From NCBI RefSeq assembly GCF_040954835.1, contig NC_090705.1, positions 16,070,436 through 16,134,435 on the forward strand: a stretch of 64,000 bases of DNA, in the 5' to 3' direction. The notes beneath the pieces are model-generated. The model saw only the letters and a list, made by a program, of their open reading frames with translations, was not told the origin of the DNA and made no database searches. The position numbers and the translations under genes were made by a program. This document shows, piece by piece, positions 1 to 57,185 of the stretch (positions within the stretch are counted from its first letter, which is position 1; each line of letters starts with the position of its first letter). The DNA is from Lepisosteus oculatus. Lineage: Eukaryota; Chordata; Actinopteri; Semionotiformes; Lepisosteidae.

Positions 1-1330
1 GAACAGGCATGGTGACCTGAACAGGTGCGAGCGTGTAAGTGGGCAAGCCGTTGACTTTGTTTCCCGTGGGAATGAGCTGGCTGAGGACAGACTGAGAGGC
101 GAGCATGGTGCCTTTGGAGGAGCCGACACCAGACACCGTCTGGTTTAGAGGAAGTCTCTGCGTCACCAGGAGCGGCTGAGATCCGGGGCCTCGCACCCCC
201 ATCTTGTTTGGGACGTTCACAGGAAGACCAGGCGGCAGCAGAGTCAGGCGCTGTTGCTGCTGCACAGGAACGCCGACAGAAATCGACATCTGCTTCGAAG
301 CGCTCTCCGGGGCGCTCGGCAACGACGTGCCCGCGGGGCCCTTGCGCAAGACTGCGCCAGCGGCCTGCGCCGCGGAGGTGGCCACGCTGGCTGGCGGGGG
401 CATGCTGGCTGTCACTCCTCGGGGAGGAGGCTGGGAGTTCTGCAGAGTCGCGACCGCAGAGCCCGGCGGAAGGAGACCCTTCGCCTCCGCGCTGGCCAGC
501 TGCACGAGAGCGGAGGCCGGCGGCGGGAGATAGGTGTGGGCCGTCCCGGGAGCGCACACCAGAGTCCCAGTGCTGTTCGCCGCTCCAGCCGGACCCCGCA
601 GAGGAGACGCAGCAGGAACGACGGGAGCCCCGGTCATCAGCGTTCCTTCGGGAGAATGCCGGACATTCTGCGGGAACTGGGGCATTTTTGCTGGCTGCTG
701 TTCGTTGGTCCCAAGCACCTTGGGGATTTTTACTGGTTGGTTCATTTTAGCCTTTGGAGCGATACTCTGAAGCTTATTGTGCTGATTTCTTTTCCCGATC
801 TTTCCGTGCTCGAACATTAGGAATTTCAGGTGCCCCTCTAATTCCTTGTGCTTGTCTGAAGTCAGGATGTGGTAAAGCAGATGCTCGGAGCTGTCGGCTG
901 GCAGGTTGCACATCCTGCAGTAAAATCGGAGAGGGGGGGAGCTGGCGTTCATTTCGCTTTCCGTTCTTTGCCCGAAATAGCGGTTCAGCAACGACGTGTA
1001 GTGATTCACCAGTATGTGTTTTTTCATGCAGTAATATAAGGAGTCCTGGTAGGGGCACTTCCGACAGGAGAACCTGTCCGTGATGACTGCAGATCCGGAG
1101 CCGGTCTGGGAAGGGGCAGCCTGGTTCTTCCTCGGGACAGTGTGGAAGATCTTGCAGTGCTGGTTGATGACTTTGGGGTGGGCAGTGAAAGGACACACGG
1201 GACAGGTAGCCAGAGCTTCCAGGTCCTGCTCGTCCTCGTGGCACCGCTGCACATGGCCTCTGTAGGCGTAGTGAGTCCTGGAGGAGAACTTGCACAGGCT
1301 GCAGCAGAACAGGTTGGTGCGGTACTTTGG
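1..1330 (-). CDS. adnp2: adnp2 last coding exon (partial)
   Basis: The exon begins after the acceptor TTTATTTTTCAG (AG at 1332-1331) with CCA AAG TAC CGC, in phase 0. It is open for 443 codons to position 2. It carries all four visible zinc fingers and the low-complexity linker. In the ADNP family the last exon encodes most of the protein, so this exon should run on for another 1.5 kb or more outside the window. GC content rises sharply relative to the adjoining intron. Confidence 0.95.
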
Positions 1331-4300: not shown

Positions 4301-6172
4301 ACGCCTGAAGCCAATGGCAGCCATTGTGTGACATGTCTGAAAACATTGAAATGGGTCCGGCAGATTAAAGGGTTAAAGGTTCAGCTTCTCTGTTCTCAAT
4401 ATCGAACTGACCCTGCGCATGATCCCACTTGAGTAAAGCATCAGAGATTTCAAGCCACCTTGAAATTTCAAATGAAAACATCAGGGCGACAGCATGTTTT
4501 CTTTACCATCTCCATTCAGGACTGCACATGCATGAACACAAGTTCAGGTTTGCAATCTTCACACGTCTACGAGCGATACATGAAGTGCAATTAGCTACAG
4601 GAAAAGGATGGCATGGTGATTCCAGTCTGCAAACGATATTAGACCGCTACCAAACAAAGCCACTGGACTGGATTCAAAACGAGATTAAACAGTTCACAGA
4701 AATGCACTGAAGAACTCAGGTCTTGTATGGACTTGCTGCATTTCAGCTCTTGGATCAACGTCTCCCCATGTGGTAAGAACCACATTCTAAAGATCTCTCA
4801 GTCCCCGGTGATGCCTCTCTACGGTCAATAATGTAGCATTATTCTGTCCCCCTCACTGCCCCTTTAATAAAACTGTTTTCTTTGAGCAAACGGCTTCTTG
4901 TCCACATCATAGAAAGCAGCAGTACCTCCCACCTCCTCCTCTGTGATTGGCTGGTGCTTACCTCACTGTTAGCACACCAAATCAGAACAGCCCTGCTGCC
5001 CTAGATCCCCTTATCTCGTTGCTCATCCCACTGGTATCCAAGCAGCCATTTCAGATTTAATGGAAATGAACTGTGGGTAGCAATCTCTTGCCCAAGGATA
5101 TCCCTATGCAGGTAAACAACAGTGCTGCTGGTTCCCTTTCAGAGAAAACCCACAAGCGTGGTCTCTGTTACACATACCCCCATGCACAAGCTTGAGCCTG
5201 ACAAGTTTCAAGTTACAAGTCCTGCAGTGAGGGTAGGTAAGAGACTATGACGAAAATAATGATGATGAAATGGAACTGAACACCTCAAAGGCTTTTTTCA
5301 CATTTGCAACACACTTCTGATATAGTTTCCTGAAAGGCTTGGACCGCCTCAAGCTTTCTCTTTCTCTTGCTTGTTGACTACGTGGAGAACAGCTCATTTA
5401 GGAGAAACAGAGTAGGATATTCTTTAATGGGGAAATTTGTTTCAGCTTGTTTTAAGAAAAACAATATTCAGAGAAAAAGAAACTGCTGTAATTGACATAG
5501 GAAAGAGAAACACAGGCATCTACAGTTGGAATTTCCAAAATTCATTTCACGTGAAAACTAATATCCTAATCCTTCGTCGTATGTTAAGGAACATAGAGTC
5601 GCTGGATTGTGTGGACATTTCTGGACAGACAATGTTTAAACAGGTGTGTGTATATTCATAACATAACATCACTTTATTAGCCCTATGCAATTTCTTGCAC
5701 TAGGAATTTGTCTTTTCGCATACCCCAGCTTGCTCTCCATGAAACACAGACACACAGACAGGGAGAGAGAAGCTTGGGGTCAGACTGCAGGATCAGGCAT
5801 TGTACAGTGCCCCTGGAGCAGTTGGGGTTAAGGGCCTTGCTCAGGGGCCCAATGGAGTAGGATTTCTCAGCCGGCTGCTGGATTTGAACCAGCAACCTTC
5901 CAGCCACAGGTGCAGATCCTTAGCCACAGAGCCACCACAAAGAGGAAGCAGCACTGATTACTTCAGTCTTCTTTTGACAATTTTGTGCTATGATAAAACT
6001 GAAAATAGAATGAAAATCAACCCTGGACTCACAGTAATAATACAGTTAACAATTAATAACTCACCCCCAGCAGGTCTTTACAATCCTGAAGGCCAATATC
6101 CAACAAAATATTTTTTACCCTCTTCCTGGACTTTCTGATTTTTTCCAGATTAACTACAGGAAGCTGAAACAT
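1..6172 (-). CDS. adnp2: ADNP2, activity-dependent neuroprotector homeobox 2 (partial; N-terminal 511 residues)
   Basis: A multi-zinc-finger homeodomain nuclear protein of the ADNP family. Three coding exons are visible (6065-6172, 2399-2494, 1-1330), all joined in phase 0, giving 36+32+443 residues before the window edge. The start MFQLPVVNL at 6172 is the typical family N-terminus (MFQIPV... in human ADNP2). Exon 3 opens with [10 protein letters not shown] and holds four C2H2-like fingers: C78/C81/H94/H99, C111/C114/H126/H131, C157/C160/H173/H178 and C206/C209/H222/H229. A long Pro/Ala/Ser/Gln-rich linker follows, then [19 protein letters not shown] near the edge, a segment shared with human ADNP2. 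The ADNP paralogue is less similar at [10 protein letters not shown] and [11 protein letters not shown]. The homeodomain must lie left of the window. ADNP proteins bind chromatin; the role here is inferred from the family. Confidence 0.95.
1331..2398 (-). other. adnp2: adnp2 intron
   Basis: A GT-AG intron of 1068 bases between the two downstream coding exons. It is AT-rich. I see no repeat or other feature in it that I can name. Confidence 0.85.
2399..2494 (-). CDS. adnp2: adnp2 second coding exon
   Basis: A 96-base exon of 32 whole codons reading [19 protein letters not shown]... and ending in GKRKKK. The acceptor is TTTTTACCAG and the donor AAG|GTATTC. The reading GDKYFHNT matches the family segment GEKYFYNT in human ADNP2, which fixes frame and strand. 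Confidence 0.93.
2691..2900 (+). repeat. dispersed repeat, family D, copy 1
   Basis: About 210 bases, including the stretches GTAGCGCTTTTCTGC and ACAGGTAATGGGGACTCCCC and ending near GGGAGGTCATGATGGG. It aligns along its whole length, in the same orientation, with 57186-57407. This copy is more diverged. The element class is not clear: no RNA polymerase III boxes and no coding potential are visible. Confidence 0.85.
5661..5939 (-). repeat. tRNA-derived SINE, family A, copy 1
   Basis: Read on the minus strand, this has a tRNA-like head (A box around TGGCTCTGTGGCTAAGG, B box GGTTCAAATCC at 5890-5880), a body with GGGCCCCTGAGCAAGGCCC, and a 3' end GGGCTAATAAAGTGATG. It matches 47606-47884 over the full length in the opposite orientation, with scattered substitutions. 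It lies inside the adnp2 intron, in the sense orientation. Confidence 0.92.
6065..6172 (-). CDS. adnp2: adnp2 first coding exon
   Basis: ATG at 6172-6170, 36 codons, reading [19 protein letters not shown] and ending [16 protein letters not shown], then donor GGG|GTGAGT. The exon continues 10 bases upstream as 5' UTR to the acceptor TTTCTTTACACAG (exon edge 6182). The start is secure because the family N-terminus MFQ(L/I)PV is conserved. Confidence 0.95.
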
Positions 6173-8489: not shown

Positions 8490-9370
8490 CAGTGGTTCTC
8501 AAACTTTTTGGACCAAGTACCACCCCTAATCCAACCAAAGCATCCAAGTACCACCTACAAGTCACCATCTCATAGGAACCCCAGAAATTCTCAATGACCA
8601 ACATGAGCGCATGTGCACACACACTCACACATACATATAATAAATATTATAATAATAAACTTTGTTTGATATATTAAAATGTGGCTTCTCAAAGTGTTTT
8701 ACAGAAAAAAACAACATAAAAATAAAAAAGCACCATTTCAGTGAGAGGGGTGAGCCCGTTTAGTCGAGCAAAGCAGATGTGAATTAATTTTTCGAGCCTT
8801 GATACAATTCACAGCAGAGTCTAACAGATTTTAAATCGTCAGGCATTTTCTTGATGGCAAAGGTCTCGCGGTGGATGTTGCAATGAAACCATTAATTTCT
8901 GGAGCAACCTCTCTAATTCGTGCAACTACACCCCTGTGTCGGCTTGTCATTGCTCTGGCACCGTCTGTACAAACTCCGACACATTTCATCCAGTCGTTCT
9001 CGCACTTCGTATCCAGTGCCATTCTCTCCGATAAATTCATTCAGAAGCTGAAATACGTGCTCTCCTGTAGTTCCTGTTGGTAGCGGCTTACAGAACAGAA
9101 AGTCCTCACGGGACGTACCCTCAAACTCGTATCTAACGTAAACGAGCAAATTGGCCAAATGGACTACAGACTCATATAATTGCAGTGAAAAACATCTGCT
9201 CATCTTAACGCGTGCTGTCAGCGTACTTTTGATATAATCCTTCATTTCAATAATTCTATGAATGACTGTGTCTTTCTGGGGGGGGCAGCAAGTCGAGCTG
9301 TTCAGCAGCTTTTTCTCCACACATAATATTGTGGGGCTTACCTGCTTTAGCAATCCGCAAGCTTGCATTT
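8490..9370 (-). pseudogene. Decayed hAT (Charlie/ZBED-like) transposase with one terminus
   Basis: The minus strand from 9370 to about 8830 encodes hAT transposase text in two frames: LANLLVYVRYEFEGTSREDF, FCKPLPTGTTGEHVFQLLNE, then after a frameshift near 8985-9005 CVGVCTDGARAMTSRHRG and VVARIREVAPEI. These motifs are typical of the catalytic core of the hAT transposases that also gave rise to ZBED5/GTF2IRD2-type genes. The downstream C-terminal part is missing. At 8490 a terminal-like CAGTGGTTCTCAAACTTTTT would be the 3' end of the element. The upstream terminus was not found. Non-functional. Confidence 0.85.
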
Positions 9371-43778: not shown

Positions 43779-43889
43779 TTATTCTGCTGGTGTTCTCAAG
43801 TCTCCCGATGGAGGAGGAAAATAATCTTCAGTCCTGAAAATGGGAGGAGGCTCTTGGCGATGCTGTGGTCTTCTGGGGCTGCTTGGTTT
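43779..43889 (-). CDS. bloc1s4: bloc1s4 coding exon 5 with stop
   Basis: 36 codons plus TAA (43781-43779) after acceptor TTTCTGTTGCAG. It reads KPSSPRRPQHRQEPPPIFRT then EDYFPPPSGDLRTPAE. FRTEDYFP is the conserved C-terminal signature. Confidence 0.93.
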   Translation of the reverse strand, partial: KPSSPRRPQHRQEPPPIFRTEDYFPPPSGDLRTPAE

Positions 43890-46800
43890 CTGCAACAGAA
43901 AGATGTTGTTAACTCCTCCAGCACGCTTACACCCCTCCCACCCGGGAGATACCTCTGCGTCCCCTGGTGTAACGGTAATAGACTCAGGGAATCTTTCATC
44001 CCCTGTGTAGTCTCACACCCAAACAATGCAAAAGAACTCTCTTATCTCGTGAAGTACAGCTGTACTGTGTTCATTGTTGGTGACGTTGGTCTGTTTTTAT
44101 TTGATTCTGCTGCAAGATAAATGTCCCCCAGGAGATAATAAAACTTGAACTGAATCGAACTGCTGTATTTGTATTGGCTGCATGTGGATGTGTGGTTATA
44201 GAGACCAGTTGTGTGCCCAACAGTGTGGATGGTAGCTGAAGTATTCATTTTTCAGTTTTGGCTAACTTTTAACACAAAGTTAACCCACACTAAGACCCAG
44301 TTCCTCAGTTAAATGCTTTTGAGTAGCTTTACAAAATTTGAATGCGTTGATGAAGAAACTGAAAATTAAGCTCCTACAAGGGCAACATGCCACAAGTCTC
44401 AGGCTTTTACCATACTGCTTATCTTATTAAACCCACTACTTTATTCCTTTAAAATCACTTGGTTGTGTCTTAGTTCCACTACCTATCATGAAAACATCAG
44501 GTCCTCACACTGGTGTGATCAGAGATAATTAAAAACTACTCTTCCTCTGAAAGGTAAGCGCAGAAGAAAATTGTTTAGGCAGCACTAATGGTACCACAAG
44601 GTCAGATCACAGAGTAAAAACAATCTTGAAAATGTCAATATAGAAAAACTTAACTGAGTGTATTTTATGTTTAACCCATGTTTGCATGGGTTTCCTCCAG
44701 GTGCTCTGGTTTCCACAGCCCAAGAACAGACTGGTAGATTAACTGGATTTGGGGAAAACTGGTGTGTCTGTGTGTGTATGTCTGTGTGTGTGTGTCTGTG
44801 TGTTGGCACTGCGATGGTCTGGTCCCCTATCCAGCACGTATCCTGCATTGGGCCCTTTGCTTGCTGGGTTAGTCTTTGGCTACCACGCGTCCCTGATTTG
44901 GAAGAAGCGGTTAGAAAATGCATGGATGGTAATGGAGGTACTCACGCTGAGAAACCCAGGGACGTTCATCGTGCGGAAGATCTTTCTGAAAGCGCTGGGC
45001 AGGGTGGACATGTCAGCCTCTGCCTGTGTGACCTGCTCCTCCATCACACCAACGTTGTGGCTGACCATTTTAACAAAAGCCTGAAATGCACACAATGACA
45101 CTAGATCAGCCTTCTTGTCATATTCCGCAAGAATTATTCAAAAACAGCCGACTTAACAGGTTACCAGAATATTTCACGCCTCACAGCATAGACAAATGCA
45201 GGTGTTTTGTAATTTTTTCCTTAATGATTCAGACTGACAGACTTATTAGTACACGGACAGTTTCAGCTCAAAATAAAGTTCTTAAGAGTGGCTCTGTTGT
45301 ATGCATTTCAGTTTCTGCTATGTTTCTCTTTGCACTGCTATTACAACACTATATATTGGCCTAATTTCTTTATTTGTATAGCTATATACAAAAACATGCA
45401 ACCAATATTCTTTTTCCTCTGACAAAGCAATATTCATAATGGATGTAATGAAAACAAATCGTCCACAATCATGCACCATGTATTTTAATAATTTTCCAAA
45501 ACTTTAACTTTTGTCACTCTCACATCTAAACTCAGTTCTTCAGCTTTTAACAGCTGCCAAAATAAAACTGCACATACAATCTTTTTTTAATACTGGTAAG
45601 CACCCAAACACTGTTTTTAAAGTCAGTAAACAGCCTGTTTCTTTAGGATGATCTTGGCTTCGATTACTTTCTTTGTAAATGCAATGTTTCATGAAGACGA
45701 GCGTGATCAGAAATGCTTTTCCATGTAATAAACCAGCACATTTTAAGGACTTTAGAATTAAAAAAATTAAAAAAGTAGAACAATTCCTTTGAAAACTCTT
45801 TTTAAGAAAGTCTTCACAGTGTTCTCCTACACCAGAGTCTGGTAGTGTATAGGCTTTCCTATACTTTTATCAGTGTTGTTGCTGTGTGTATGCAAGCTGG
45901 CCATATCTTGCACAACTGTACCGGACAGTACTTAATGAGACATGGGCTGAACAGGTTTTCACATGGCTTCAGCTCCGTCTTAAAAATAAATTAATAAAAG
46001 CTATATGAAAAATCAAGTTTTTTTCCAGTAAAAAACAAATCATATCTACTTAATAACCTGATACATGCATTGCAATTAATACTTGTTCTATATGTACACT
46101 TACTTCCAATTTATCAATTTTTCTGTATATCTCTCTCATTTCTTCAGATTTCCTGTGAATTTGAGGTAGATTTTCATTTACGACCTGAGAAGTATCATTT
46201 CGAATCTGGATAGGAAAAAAAAGACAAAGGGCTACCTTACGTTTAAACTACTGATCTAGGGAGATATGAAGAAGCAGACACATCAAACAGTCTAGACAGT
46301 GGCACTGCAAGACATTAGGAGCATATGCATTACAATCATACCATATGTAGGCGAAGAATCCTGAGATACATAGAATATCAAGTTACAGCGCAGTATAGAG
46401 AAACAGAATCTGACGGCTCTCTACCTCTGCCTTGTGCAAATAATACATCACTCCCTCTGTATTTAACAATGTCAAATTTTTATTCCCCTGTTTCCTTGTG
46501 CTGTGTAAGGCAGACAGCTGTGCTCACAGATCTACCATGTAATCTTCTAGTAAGGCTTAATACAGAGGTAATTAGCACACCTGGCACACAAACCAAAGAA
46601 GACAGTATATTGCATACGCAAATCCTGAATTGTACATACTGTATGTTCAGACCTATAATGACTGAATGTGTAGTTTCAGTATGATGTTTTTTCAAGTGCA
46701 AGAGTTTGAGGAGACTTCACAATGATTAAGCAGTAAGACATACATTATTAAGTTGAGGATACCTTTTTTGTGTGCTCTTAAAGACCCTTAGACCTACTAC

Positions 46801-48285
46801 CTCCAGCAAGATGTGGATAGGCCCCAATCCATTTTAAGCAATGTCAATTTGTTAAACGCGTATGAGACAGTGAATCTTGTCTTGCATCCCTGTATGCTGA
46901 GGACCAGAGCACAGCTGTTTGGCACCCTGACTGTTTGCATAGAGACAATGCAACCAATGTTTTTAAACACCTGAATCCCATTTTAACACTTTTGGAAAAT
47001 TAAACTATCACCTAAATGTGACTGAAGTAAGGTCGGATGTTCTTGTGAAAACCTAAGAAAGGTTCCAAATCAGAGGAGGTCATTCTGCCCATCTAGCCTT
47101 TTGGCAGTTAACTGATCCAGGGATCTCATACAGTCATTTTTGAAAGGATCCAGGATACTGGCTTCAACAACATGGCTGGCTAGCTTGTTACAGACTCCCA
47201 CAACCCTTTGTGTAAATGCCTCCTGTGTGAAAACATACCATGTCAAGCATTCCAACAAACTCATCCACTCTGGTAAGCATCTCCTCCAAGCTCTTCTCTA
47301 GATCCCGAATCTGTGCAAAAAGAGAGAATCAAGATCAAGAATCAAGAATCAAACACAGTGCTTATGCATGAACATATTTTAAGAACAGACTATTTCCAAT
47401 AGCCTAAGAACAAATAAATCTACTGGGTTACGTCCGATGGGAAACAACTGAGTTACGACTTTTCTTCCAAGGCAGCAATCAGCGATACGCCACCCTATAG
47501 CTATAACACGGGAGAGAGGGGAATTATTTGCCATATACTGTATACATGTACATAGGGATTCTTATTTGTGCTGCTCTCTCAGGACGTGCAAAGTGCAATA
47601 GATTGGGCGGGGCGGTGGCTCTGTGGCTAAGGATCTGCGCCTGTGGCTAGAAAGTTGCCGGTTCAAATCCGGCGGCCAGCAGAGGAATCCTACTCCGTTG
47701 GGCCCCTGAGCAAGGCCCTTAACGCCAGCTGCTCCAGGGGCGCCGTATAAATGTCTGACCCTGCGCTCTGACCCCAAGCTTCTCTCTCCCTGTCTGCGTA
47801 TCTCATGGAGAGCAAGCTGGGGTATACTAAAAGACGAATTCCTAATGCAAGAAATTGTATACGGCTAATAAAGTGATCTTATCTTAACCTACACCGCACA
47901 ACGTAGTCGGCACGTTATAAAACAGCAAATAATACAAAATGACAGCCACAGGCGACTATGCACAACACAGCCTCACACGGCGGCACAACAGCAAGCACGG
48001 GGATATTTAGGATCAAGATCTCACCTCCACCCCAACGTCGGCTCTGAGGTAGGAGGAGTAGCTTTGGGCAGTGTGTCTCAGCAGCTGCTCGTCCTCTTCC
48101 ACGTCCAGCGGCGGCGCGCCGCTGCTGAAGCTGTGGCTGTGGGACACGACGCCGCTGCTCAAAGCGTCACTCGTTACCGAGGCGCTGCTCTCGCTCTGCG
48201 ACACATTGCCGCTGTCCCGGCTGACATCGGCGCTCGACTCCTCCACCGGGGACAGAGACCCCACACCTTCTGACCGATGCTCCAT
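43779..48285 (-). CDS. bloc1s4: BLOC-1 complex subunit 4 (cappuccino), complete, five coding exons
   Basis: Subunit of BLOC-1, the cytosolic octamer needed for biogenesis of lysosome-related organelles such as melanosomes. Exons 48025-48285, 47239-47310, 46104-46205, 44946-45080 and 43779-43889 join in phase 0 to 226 residues (human 217). The acidic Ser-rich N-terminus contains RDSGNVSQSESSAS (human SGDSGTVSQSHSSAS). The helical coiled-coil core, residues about 88-180, reads MLTRVDEFVGMLDM, EMREIYRKIDKLEAFVKMV, MEEQVTQAEADMSTLPSAF and FRTMNVPGF. The C-terminus has the diagnostic IFRTEDYFPPP. BCAS4, the family paralogue, lacks that C-terminus, so BLOC1S4 is the better name. The human gene is intronless, so the four introns here are notable. 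Confidence 0.93.
43890..44945 (-). other. bloc1s4: bloc1s4 intron 4
   Basis: 1056 bases. It holds a family C SINE piece (44690-44936). Near 44127-44160 a string GGAGATAATAAAACTTGAAC resembles another fish retroposon 3' tail. Confidence 0.8.
44690..44936 (+). repeat. tRNA-SINE family C, body and tail, with TG microsatellite
   Basis: GGGTTTCCTCCAGGTGCTCT, AGATTAACTGGATTTGGG, a TG-rich tract (44761-44805), ACTGCGATGGTCTGG and the tail AATGCATGGATGGTAATGG. The tRNA head is missing. It lies antisense within intron 4 and ends about 10 bases from the exon 4 donor. Confidence 0.8.
44946..45080 (-). CDS. bloc1s4: bloc1s4 coding exon 4
   Basis: 45 codons between acceptor TGCATTTCAG and donor AGC|GTGAGT. 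It reads AFVKMVSHNVGVMEEQVTQA then EADMSTLPSAFRKIFRTMNV and PGFLS, a close match to human BLOC1S4. Confidence 0.95.
45081..46103 (-). other. bloc1s4: bloc1s4 intron 3
   Basis: 1023 bases, AT-rich. Nothing recognised. Confidence 0.85.
46104..46205 (-). CDS. bloc1s4: bloc1s4 coding exon 3
   Basis: 34 codons between acceptor CCTATCCAG and donor GAA|GTAAGT. It reads IRNDTSQVVNENLPQIHRKS then EEMREIYRKIDKLE, corresponding to human ...MRRIYSRIDRLE. Confidence 0.94.
46206..47238 (-). other. bloc1s4: bloc1s4 intron 2
   Basis: 1033 bases. It contains a LINE 3' end (47065-47225) that stops about a dozen bases from the exon 2 donor. The rest is plain AT-rich sequence. Confidence 0.85.
47065..47225 (-). 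repeat. LINE ORF2 C-terminus and 3' end remnant in bloc1s4 intron 2
   Basis: On the minus strand it reads FTQRVVGVCNKLASHVVEAS then ILDPFK, followed by LDG-QNDLL-like tail text, the same ending as the other LINE copies. It is in sense orientation with bloc1s4 and begins at about 47225, next to the donor GT at 47238-47237. Confidence 0.8.
47239..47310 (-). CDS. bloc1s4: bloc1s4 coding exon 2
   Basis: 24 codons between acceptor TTTTTGCACAG and donor ATG|GTATGT. It reads IRDLEKSLEEMLTRVDEFVG then MLDM, matching human LEDLLTRVDEFVGMLDM. Confidence 0.95.
47311..48024 (-). other. bloc1s4: bloc1s4 intron 1 with SINE
   Basis: 714 bases with GT-AG ends. A family A SINE (47606-47884) fills more than a third of it, in the antisense direction. 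Confidence 0.85.
47606..47884 (+). repeat. tRNA-derived SINE, family A, copy 2
   Basis: Near full length: head GGGCGGGGCGGTGGCTCTGT with A box around TGGCTCTGTGGCTAAGG, B box GGTTCAAATCC (47660-47670), body GGGCCCCTGAGCAAGGCCC, 3' end ACGGCTAATAAAGTGATCTT. It pairs with the copy at 5661-5939 and is younger-looking (the tRNA boxes are clean). Confidence 0.93.
48025..48285 (-). CDS. bloc1s4: bloc1s4 coding exon 1
   Basis: ATG at 48285-48283, 87 codons, donor GAG|GTGAGA. The product is Ser- and acid-rich (DVSRDSGNVSQSESSASVTS, then SHSHSFSSGAPPLDVEEDEQ), likely disordered, as in the human protein. The first ATG was chosen; no in-frame upstream alternative is visible. Confidence 0.9.
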
Positions 48286-54326: not shown

Positions 54327-55297
54327 TTATAGCGTGATCACTGTCCCGTCCTCCTCCACACCTCCTCTGGGGAGAGCCAGGCTGTGCCGGGGATCAGTCC
54401 GCAAGGTGTGGAGGATTTTGTGCAGGCTGCCATTGCTTTCCCTGATGGTGGGGCTGCTGCTGTGATGGTGCTGGAGGGTGAGGTCTCTGTGCAGCTTGTA
54501 GCTCAAGTGGCTGTTTCCTGCTCCGTTGAGGCTGGGCTGGGAGTGGAAGGAGAGAGTGGAGACAACGGAGGGGGGGCGGGGCGGGCTGGAGAGGGGGGGC
54601 GGGGCAGGTGGGTGGGGCTGGGCTCTGGAGGGGGCGGAGCCGGAGGACCGGTGGGAGGGGCGCTTGAGGTTGCTCTCGATCACGATGTCGGACTCCTCGT
54701 CGCTCTCCAGCTCGTCGGCGGGGAAGCTGTGCCCCGTGCCCGCGGGCGGCAGGCCGGCGAAGCCCGTGGAGCTGCCACTGTCCGTGGACTGGCCAGAGCT
54801 GCCGGAGATACGGCTGCTGCGCACGATGTTGTTCCGCTGGTTGACTGGCTTGACGGTGATGATGAGGTTGTGGCTGTTGGCGATCATCATGTCCGTCACC
54901 TGGTCCAGGGTCTTGCCCGTCACCTCGATCCCGTTCACCTCCAGCACCTCGTCGTTGACCGCCAGCAGCCCCGTGCTCTCCGCCAGCCCCCCCGGCACCA
55001 TGCGGGAGATGAAGATCCCCGGCACCTTCTCCAGGCCGTGCGGGGTGACGCGGACGCTGGTGCCATCCCGGATGTAGAAACCCAGCGGCTTGTCCGAGCC
55101 ATGGCGGTACAGCCGGACCCGCCGGTGGGACTCTGGCAGGATGTCCACGTCGATGATGGACGACACGGGGCGGAAGTCCTGAGGCAGGCCAATCCGGATG
55201 TGAGGCCGCTTCCTGATGACGTCGGGGCGCAACGCAACGACCGCCTTCTTCCGCCGCGTCAGGGTGTTGGTGCCAAAGTCGCTGTAGTCGACCTCCT
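54327..55297 (-). CDS. pard6g: PAR6 gamma, last coding exon (semi-CRIB, PDZ, C-terminus)
   Basis: PAR6 is the adaptor of the PAR3-PAR6-aPKC-CDC42 polarity complex. The exon follows acceptor CTGTTTCCGCAG (AG at 55299-55298) with a split codon, so the intron is phase 1. It runs 322 codons to TAA (54329-54327). It starts [17 protein letters not shown]; the semi-CRIB reads [20 protein letters not shown] (exon residues about 35-54). The PDZ domain spans about 59-151, with carboxylate loop PLGFYI and [21 protein letters not shown] Ser/Pro-rich spacer follows and the end is [20 protein letters not shown] then TVITL. That tail matches PARD6G ([18 protein letters not shown]...) rather than PARD6A or PARD6B. 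The N-terminal PB1 domain exons lie right of the window. The Pro-rich spacer is longer than in human. Confidence 0.94.
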
Positions 55298-57185
55298 CTG
55301 CGGAAACAGAACAAAAACAAGAGCGCTGACCGGGTGTGCTTTATTTCCGAGGGGTGAGAAAACCCTAGGGTCGAAATAGAGAGAGTCAGGAAGGCGTGAA
55401 AAAGACATTCCTCAAGATTTTCAGGCTGTGTACGTCATTCCCCTCTCATATTGCATCAGGACTTTCACGGACTAGCTCAGCTTTTCAGGCCACATATTGT
55501 GCACAGCTGAGCAGGAAGACAGAAGTAACAAAACTGCTTTTTGCATACGATACCCTCTCAATCTTTTAGGGGGAAAAAGGCAGACTTAACAAAAGAATAA
55601 CATTTCAGAGAAGACAAAACTATAAAAACAAACCTCTCCCAAACGGTGAATAAATCATTTTCAGAGTTTATGTGCAGGCTGCTTAAAAAGCTTAAAATAG
55701 AGGTTTCTTGGGGCTATGAAAAATCTATGATCAGACAAATTATACTGATGTTAAATGACTGACACAAGGGAGTAAGAACTGTTTCAACCTGGGATCATAA
55801 CCAGCGAAAACTGTTTTGGATTGCAATGAGAAACCGACTGTGAGGGATCATGTGTTCTGCACAGAAGAGCACATTATTTAATTTTTCATTTGTTGTTTGC
55901 TCTTTCATCTCCGAGGGGGACAAAGGAGTAGGGGATAAAATCACAATGGCCAGAAGTGGACATCCTGTTGAATATTCTATTAAGTGACTACGAAGGAACA
56001 AGCTTTAGGCTGTGTTGTTGAAATAAACGTGCATTTCTCCCCCAAATCGTCATACCTTTACTCTCCAGAACTGAACGACGGAACCGGCTGGACGAACATT
56101 AAGCTACAACAAACTACTGAGGAAATAAACCACATGCAATGAATAAAAAACAGCAGCCCCTTGCAAAAGATGTTTTTGGGGAAAATAAAATTATAGCGGT
56201 TGTGAAACTGGGCCACAAGAGCATCCCTCCCAGTTGCTTAGACAGCTGCTTTCTATAGCCCTGCCTGCCAGGCGAAATAGCAGTGCACAGCCAGATAAGA
56301 CTGTATAAACAAGCACATTCCGTGTAGCTGCAGACGGGCAGACTCTTTCCCGAGCTCAGCCAGGTCTGGCTCCGGTACCTGCTCCTCCGGGGAGCAGGGC
56401 GGCAGTAGCTGACAGTTCTGGGAAGGACTTCAAAGGGAGGAATGATTTCCACCAGGGAGAGCAGCACTTCAGGCAGCTTGGGAATCCTGCCAGAGGCTTA
56501 TTAAACCAGGAAGCGTTGTTGTCAGACCGGGGTGGTGCTGGTGGTGGTGTGATGGTGTGTGTGTGTGTGTCGGGGGTGGGGGGTGAGGGGGGGTGAAGAA
56601 TAGGCAGCACTCTGAGGAATCCCCCCATCAAGATTCTGGATACTCTCAAGAGCCACAGGGGCTTTATGCCACTGCAGCTGTGCCACAGATTTAAAAAATG
56701 CAGACTGCTGGTGTTGGCCGCAGATAATTAATCACCACACAACCCTTTTCTAAATTTCACCCTTCAGGTTCATTTGATTGGGTCAAATAGACATTTGGGC
56801 AAAAAGTGTGAAATGTACGGTCTTATGTTCTGGACGTTTTAGCTTTTGAGAACATATGATTATACCTCCATCAAATTTGGAAGGACCGTTGCTCTTCCAT
56901 TGTGAGCCCTGTACCAGCTTTGGGGTGTGAAGTAATGTGAAAGAAAACTATTTGGATTCTCCCGTCAGTCTCCTGCCGTTCATGTGGCCCTGCAAATTCA
57001 CACACACCCAGCAAGCCTCAGCAGTCAAGCCAGGAAAAACCCCCAGTTGTGTTATCTAATGGGATGGCCCAGAGTAAAGCTGGAAGTGGCTTAGTCTGAG
57101 CCCCAGATGAGCAGCTCTTTTGGCTCTCAATATCATTTGATGATGATTATCATTATCATTAATAATAATAATAATAATAATAATT

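Follow-up and report, generated by a model that had tools for sequence, protein, structure and literature searches.

A spliced bloc1s4 gene between adnp2 and pard6g in Lepisosteus oculatus, probably the ancestral form of a gene replaced by a retrocopy in mammals

Retrogene replacement is an established process, and 'orphan' retrogenes, retrocopies that have taken over the function of a parental gene since deleted or reduced to a pseudogene, comprise 25 human cases (Ciomborowska et al., 2013, cited in an excerpt of PMC5408686). The replacements of SYCP1 in amphioxus and of Sowah in tetrapods, as they appear in an excerpt of PMC5803294, resemble the case reported here in that the parent has vanished from its former location and the retrocopy stands elsewhere; they concern other genes, however, and for BLOC1S4 the evidence is a parent that survives in a fish.

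Based on the analysis of a window of 64,000 nucleotides, the whole stretch of Lepisosteus oculatus contig NC_090705.1 considered here, we propose that its spliced bloc1s4 gene is very probably the ancestral BLOC1S4 at the original place, and that the mammalian copy is a retrogene that replaced the lost parent. Among known systems, BLOC1S4 would be a clean example of retrogene replacement. The comparison covers two fishes, this species and salmon, and two mammals, human and rabbit. BLOC1S4 is subunit 4 of BLOC-1, also called cappuccino, and is a mouse Hermansky-Pudlak model gene, and the window protein presumably has its role in BLOC-1. Positions without a prefix are those of the window, whereas prefixed ones refer to contigs of the same genome, the contig of the window being C10. 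Of three Rhodopsin_N matches in this genome, one lies in an open frame of 359 residues, consistent with an intronless rhodopsin, a mark of ray-finned fishes, and the other two lie in frames of 136 and 137 residues.

The gene runs on the minus strand from 48285 to 43779, with five exons and a product of 226 residues. Exon 1 (48025..48285, 261 nt) opens with the start codon at 48285 and ends at a phase-0 donor; exon 2 (47239..47310, 72 nt), exon 3 (46104..46205, 102 nt) and exon 4 (44946..45080, 135 nt) each equal in length the corresponding exon of a paralogue on C16, and exon 5 (43779..43889, 111 nt with the stop codon) holds the motif FRTEDYFP. All exon lengths are divisible by 3 and the phase is 0 throughout, while the introns of 714, 1033, 1023 and 1056 nt begin with GT at 4/4 donors and end with AG at 4/4 acceptors, splicing being deduced from these signals and from homology, not from RNA.

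To the left of bloc1s4, part of the last coding exon of adnp2 occupies 1..1330 on the minus strand and continues beyond the window to C10:16068984 (ADNP_N, E 4.3e-24), and the adnp2 start-codon exon lies on the same strand at 6068..6172 (lower end approximate). Further leftwards, beyond adnp2, a DIM1-family gene that we take as txnl4a is found at C10:16049656-16051787. On the right side, also on the minus strand, an open frame with a PDZ domain of PARD6 type extends over 54330..55340 (limits of the open frame) and is named pard6g because of its neighbours; four PARD6 motifs revealed no upstream pard6g exons in 94 kb of C10, rightwards to C10:16154435. Three strong PARD6 loci occur in the genome, on C10, C16 and C20, and a fourth match, on C8, is weak and resembles another PDZ; therefore, the PARD6 family gives no sign of the teleost doubling. 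In salmon, a sweep region on chromosome 14 lists pard6g, bloc1s4, nutf2, adnp2, txnl4a, pqlc1, kcng2 and ctdp1, read here as map order although the consulted portion of the source does not state the order (PMC4982270). The bloc1s4 neighbourhood is therefore not peculiar to the fish of the window. One gene of the salmon list, nutf2, was not found on C10, the four NTF2-family matches lying on C1, C8 (two) and C11. The preliminary description had given five phase-0 exons with consensus splice sites, a complete 226-residue product and a position between adnp2 and pard6g; its coordinates and residue count proved exact, and the position is borne out by the adnp2 exons on the left and the PARD6-type frame on the right.

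The mammalian gene, as described, differs in both structure and place. Human BLOC1S4 is described as intronless and lies, as we assume, between MAN2B2 and KIAA0232; to our knowledge, there is no BLOC1S4 on human 18q, and in mammals the parent would be gone from between ADNP2 and PARD6G. We take CFAP184, a name used below, to be CCDC96. In rabbit, a single 250-kb window of chromosome 2 contains BLOC1S4 with MAN2B2, KIAA0232, S100P, CFAP184, PPP2R2C and TBC1D14 (excerpt of PMC12224565), and in human, BLOC1S4 and KIAA0232 are the genes given for a SNP at 4:6741568 (excerpt of PMC11130355). In these sources, the neighbours of BLOC1S4 in salmon are those of the window, and those in human and rabbit are different.

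The block around the mammalian gene is conserved in the genome of the window species, with a CCDC96-type frame (C1:42387758), KIAA0232 (C1:42492846-42505621) and a GH38 gene presumed to be MAN2B2 (C1:42613840-42617607) in this order on C1. The whole genome (1.2 Gb, 813 contigs) was searched with the window protein, and 150 of the 272 first-look candidates were scored; no bloc1s4 was recovered at the C1 block among them, nor did a local search find one in the 40 kb 5' of KIAA0232, out of about 108 kb up to the GH38 gene, where the six local matches were dismissed as fortuitous (best E 0.46, 22.3 bits). A complete copy free of introns should, in our expectation, exceed by a good margin the scores of the single diverged exons detected at the C16 paralogue. 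The intronless copy at the 4p16-equivalent place, which would have spoken against the preliminary description, was thus absent from the scored candidates and from the 40 kb beside KIAA0232.

These results bear on the age of the retrocopy. It could predate the divergence of ray-finned fishes from tetrapods, with fishes keeping the parent and losing the copy and mammals doing the reverse; differential loss is common and only two fishes were compared, but this history is improbable, since it requires an extra loss and no intronless copy appeared in the places and candidates just named. The event that we prefer, a later retroposition, postdates the ray-finned fish/tetrapod split unless fishes have since lost the copy, and it may be mammalian, amniote or tetrapod, so that the term mammalian in the title of the preliminary description is premature.

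That the gene both lost its introns and changed its place speaks for retroposition, after which the parent would have been lost. It could be argued instead that mammalian BLOC1S4 was relocated by a rearrangement at the DNA level and lost its introns separately, both of which steps occur in vertebrates; however, retroposition accounts for the loss of all introns and the move in one event, and such a two-step course appears very unlikely. Retroposition is also the reading favoured when the spliced gene of the window, the neighbours in salmon, the other neighbourhood in mammals and the greater age of the introns, addressed below, are taken together.

The C16 paralogue provides the reference for both the identity and the history of the window gene. 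At E<=10, the genome search with the window protein gave nine matches among the 150 scored candidates: five to bloc1s4, covering 5/5 of its exons at the window locus, three to the C16 gene and one to an unrelated frame on C12. The single C16 matches are weak (E 0.41-1.08); they are counted because three of them follow one another in order, have the exon lengths of bloc1s4 and fall between the neighbours to be expected. Searching back with the C16 protein returned seven matches, all at the bloc1s4 and C16 loci (10/10 candidates scored). The C12 match (C12:27594453-27594920, E 1.09) was rejected as bloc1s4, being judged a retroelement-like frame, and a local tblastn with the BLOC1S4 protein gave no hit there; counting its flanks, this locus carries two long frames, one of 419 and one of 566 residues.

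On the plus strand of C16, exons 2-4 of the paralogue measure 72, 102 and 135 nt in phase 0, as in bloc1s4, and identical residues between the two genes number 14/24 in exon 2, 13/34 in exon 3 and 16/45 in exon 4. A candidate exon 1 (C16:9552085-9552261) ends in phase 0, no fifth exon turned up at this locus, and exons 1 and 4 are followed by weak donors (GTCAGC and GTCCGT). The exon borders were placed by visual inspection, guided by the structure of the window gene; the start of exon 3 alone is dictated by the sequence, through a stop codon lying within the acceptor. The gene is flanked by pard6b (C16:9535113-9535655) and by adnp (C16:9571470-9572051), the latter similar to the adnp2 of the window. 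Human BCAS4, a spliced gene that we take to lie on 20q13 between PARD6B and ADNP, belongs to the same family as the window gene, and in the genome of this fish the borders of exons 2-4 coincide and the two neighbourhoods are paralogous. With provisional human sequences, the C16 protein shares 42/89 residues with the BCAS4 core, 46/114 with the window protein and 43/102 with BLOC1S4, and the window protein shares 46/99 with the BCAS4 core; as such a comparison does not clearly separate BCAS4, the name bcas4 for the C16 gene rests on its neighbours.

Could the window gene then be BCAS4, and the C16 gene the true BLOC1S4? Exon structure alone fails to separate the two genes, but this exchange of names is highly unlikely. 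In a neighbourhood test, the window gene shares its PARD6-type and adnp2 flanks with the annotated bloc1s4 of salmon; its 226-residue protein contains FRTEDYFP, an end that we take to be diagnostic of BLOC1S4; and identity with human BLOC1S4, in a provisional sequence that serves as a lead only, is 105/193 for the window protein vs 43/102 for the C16 protein. In profile and structure searches with the window protein, the 13 Pfam matches all stayed below the cut-off (best BLOC1_2, 18.1 bits vs a cut-off of 33.4), and the PDB gave no homologue, its five matches (best E 0.36) being ascribed to coiled-coil character or to chance; a scan of GTDB contigs with an alignment of the two proteins gave 272 pattern matches, none of which was confirmed.

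With the window gene taken as BLOC1S4, the polarity of the intron difference can be addressed. The borders and phase of exons 2-4, placed by eye as described, are common to bloc1s4 and the C16 paralogue, so that the positions of all four introns are alike; shared positions imply that the introns predate the duplication, and therefore an intronless BLOC1S4 is the derived form. The preliminary description had taken the window gene as the ohnologue of BCAS4, here the C16 gene, and its spliced state as original, and both statements agree with the coinciding exon 2-4 borders, the first also with the parallel pard6-x-adnp neighbourhoods. That the intronless form is ancestral and introns were gained in fishes, for which we found no supporting point, is almost certainly wrong, because the borders and phase matching the C16 paralogue make the introns older than the duplication.

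For the retrogene replacement, we propose the following course. A PARD6-x-ADNP segment would have been copied, with the vertebrate genome duplications as the likeliest occasion, giving rise to BLOC1S4 and BCAS4, whose introns would stand at the same places because both come from this one segment duplication. Later, in a lineage from which mammals descend, spliced mRNA of the window type may have been reverse-transcribed and the retrocopy inserted near KIAA0232 and MAN2B2, whereupon the intronless copy would have taken over and the parent been lost. Both the retroposition step and the loss of the parent in mammals are what we infer from the present distribution.

The analysis sets the polarity of the intron difference for a gene tied to lysosome-related organelles and names the parental place, so that the timing of the replacement can be tested on vertebrate genomes already at hand. 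It also connects BLOC1S4 with BCAS4 as the two copies of a single PARD6-x-ADNP segment, a point relevant to whether BCAS4 could substitute for BLOC1S4. Among the full-text literature, whose coverage leaves most subscription journals outside, no article contained both BLOC1S4 and retrogene, and none joined cappuccino, BLOC-1 and intronless. The case may already be known, possibly within the 2013 list of human 'orphan' retrogenes. A stronger proposition, namely that BLOC1S4 is an unrecognised mammalian replacement retrogene whose vacated ADNP2-PARD6G site still has remains of the parent, perhaps regulatory elements retained for the neighbours, as is reported for Irx-Sowah, is speculative and, in our estimate, rather unlikely.

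Several minor features of the region were also observed. In the window, adnp2 shares its strand with bloc1s4 and pard6g; the adnp of C16 runs against bcas4 and pard6b. Human ADNP2 and PARD6G face each other, and in the lineage of this fish adnp2 may have flipped its orientation without leaving its place. Between adnp2 and bloc1s4, an open frame of 151 residues (8913-9368, minus strand) looks by eye like part of a transposon-derived protein and has no Pfam match at E 0.001. ARAGORN called no tRNA in the window, and repeat and promoter scans of it were uninformative. Intron 1 of bloc1s4 contains a dispersed repeat at 47565-47864 with a head that appears tRNA-like by eye, perhaps a SINE. Across 170 kb of C16, this repeat and the stretch 5667-5919 hit one and the same set of three places.
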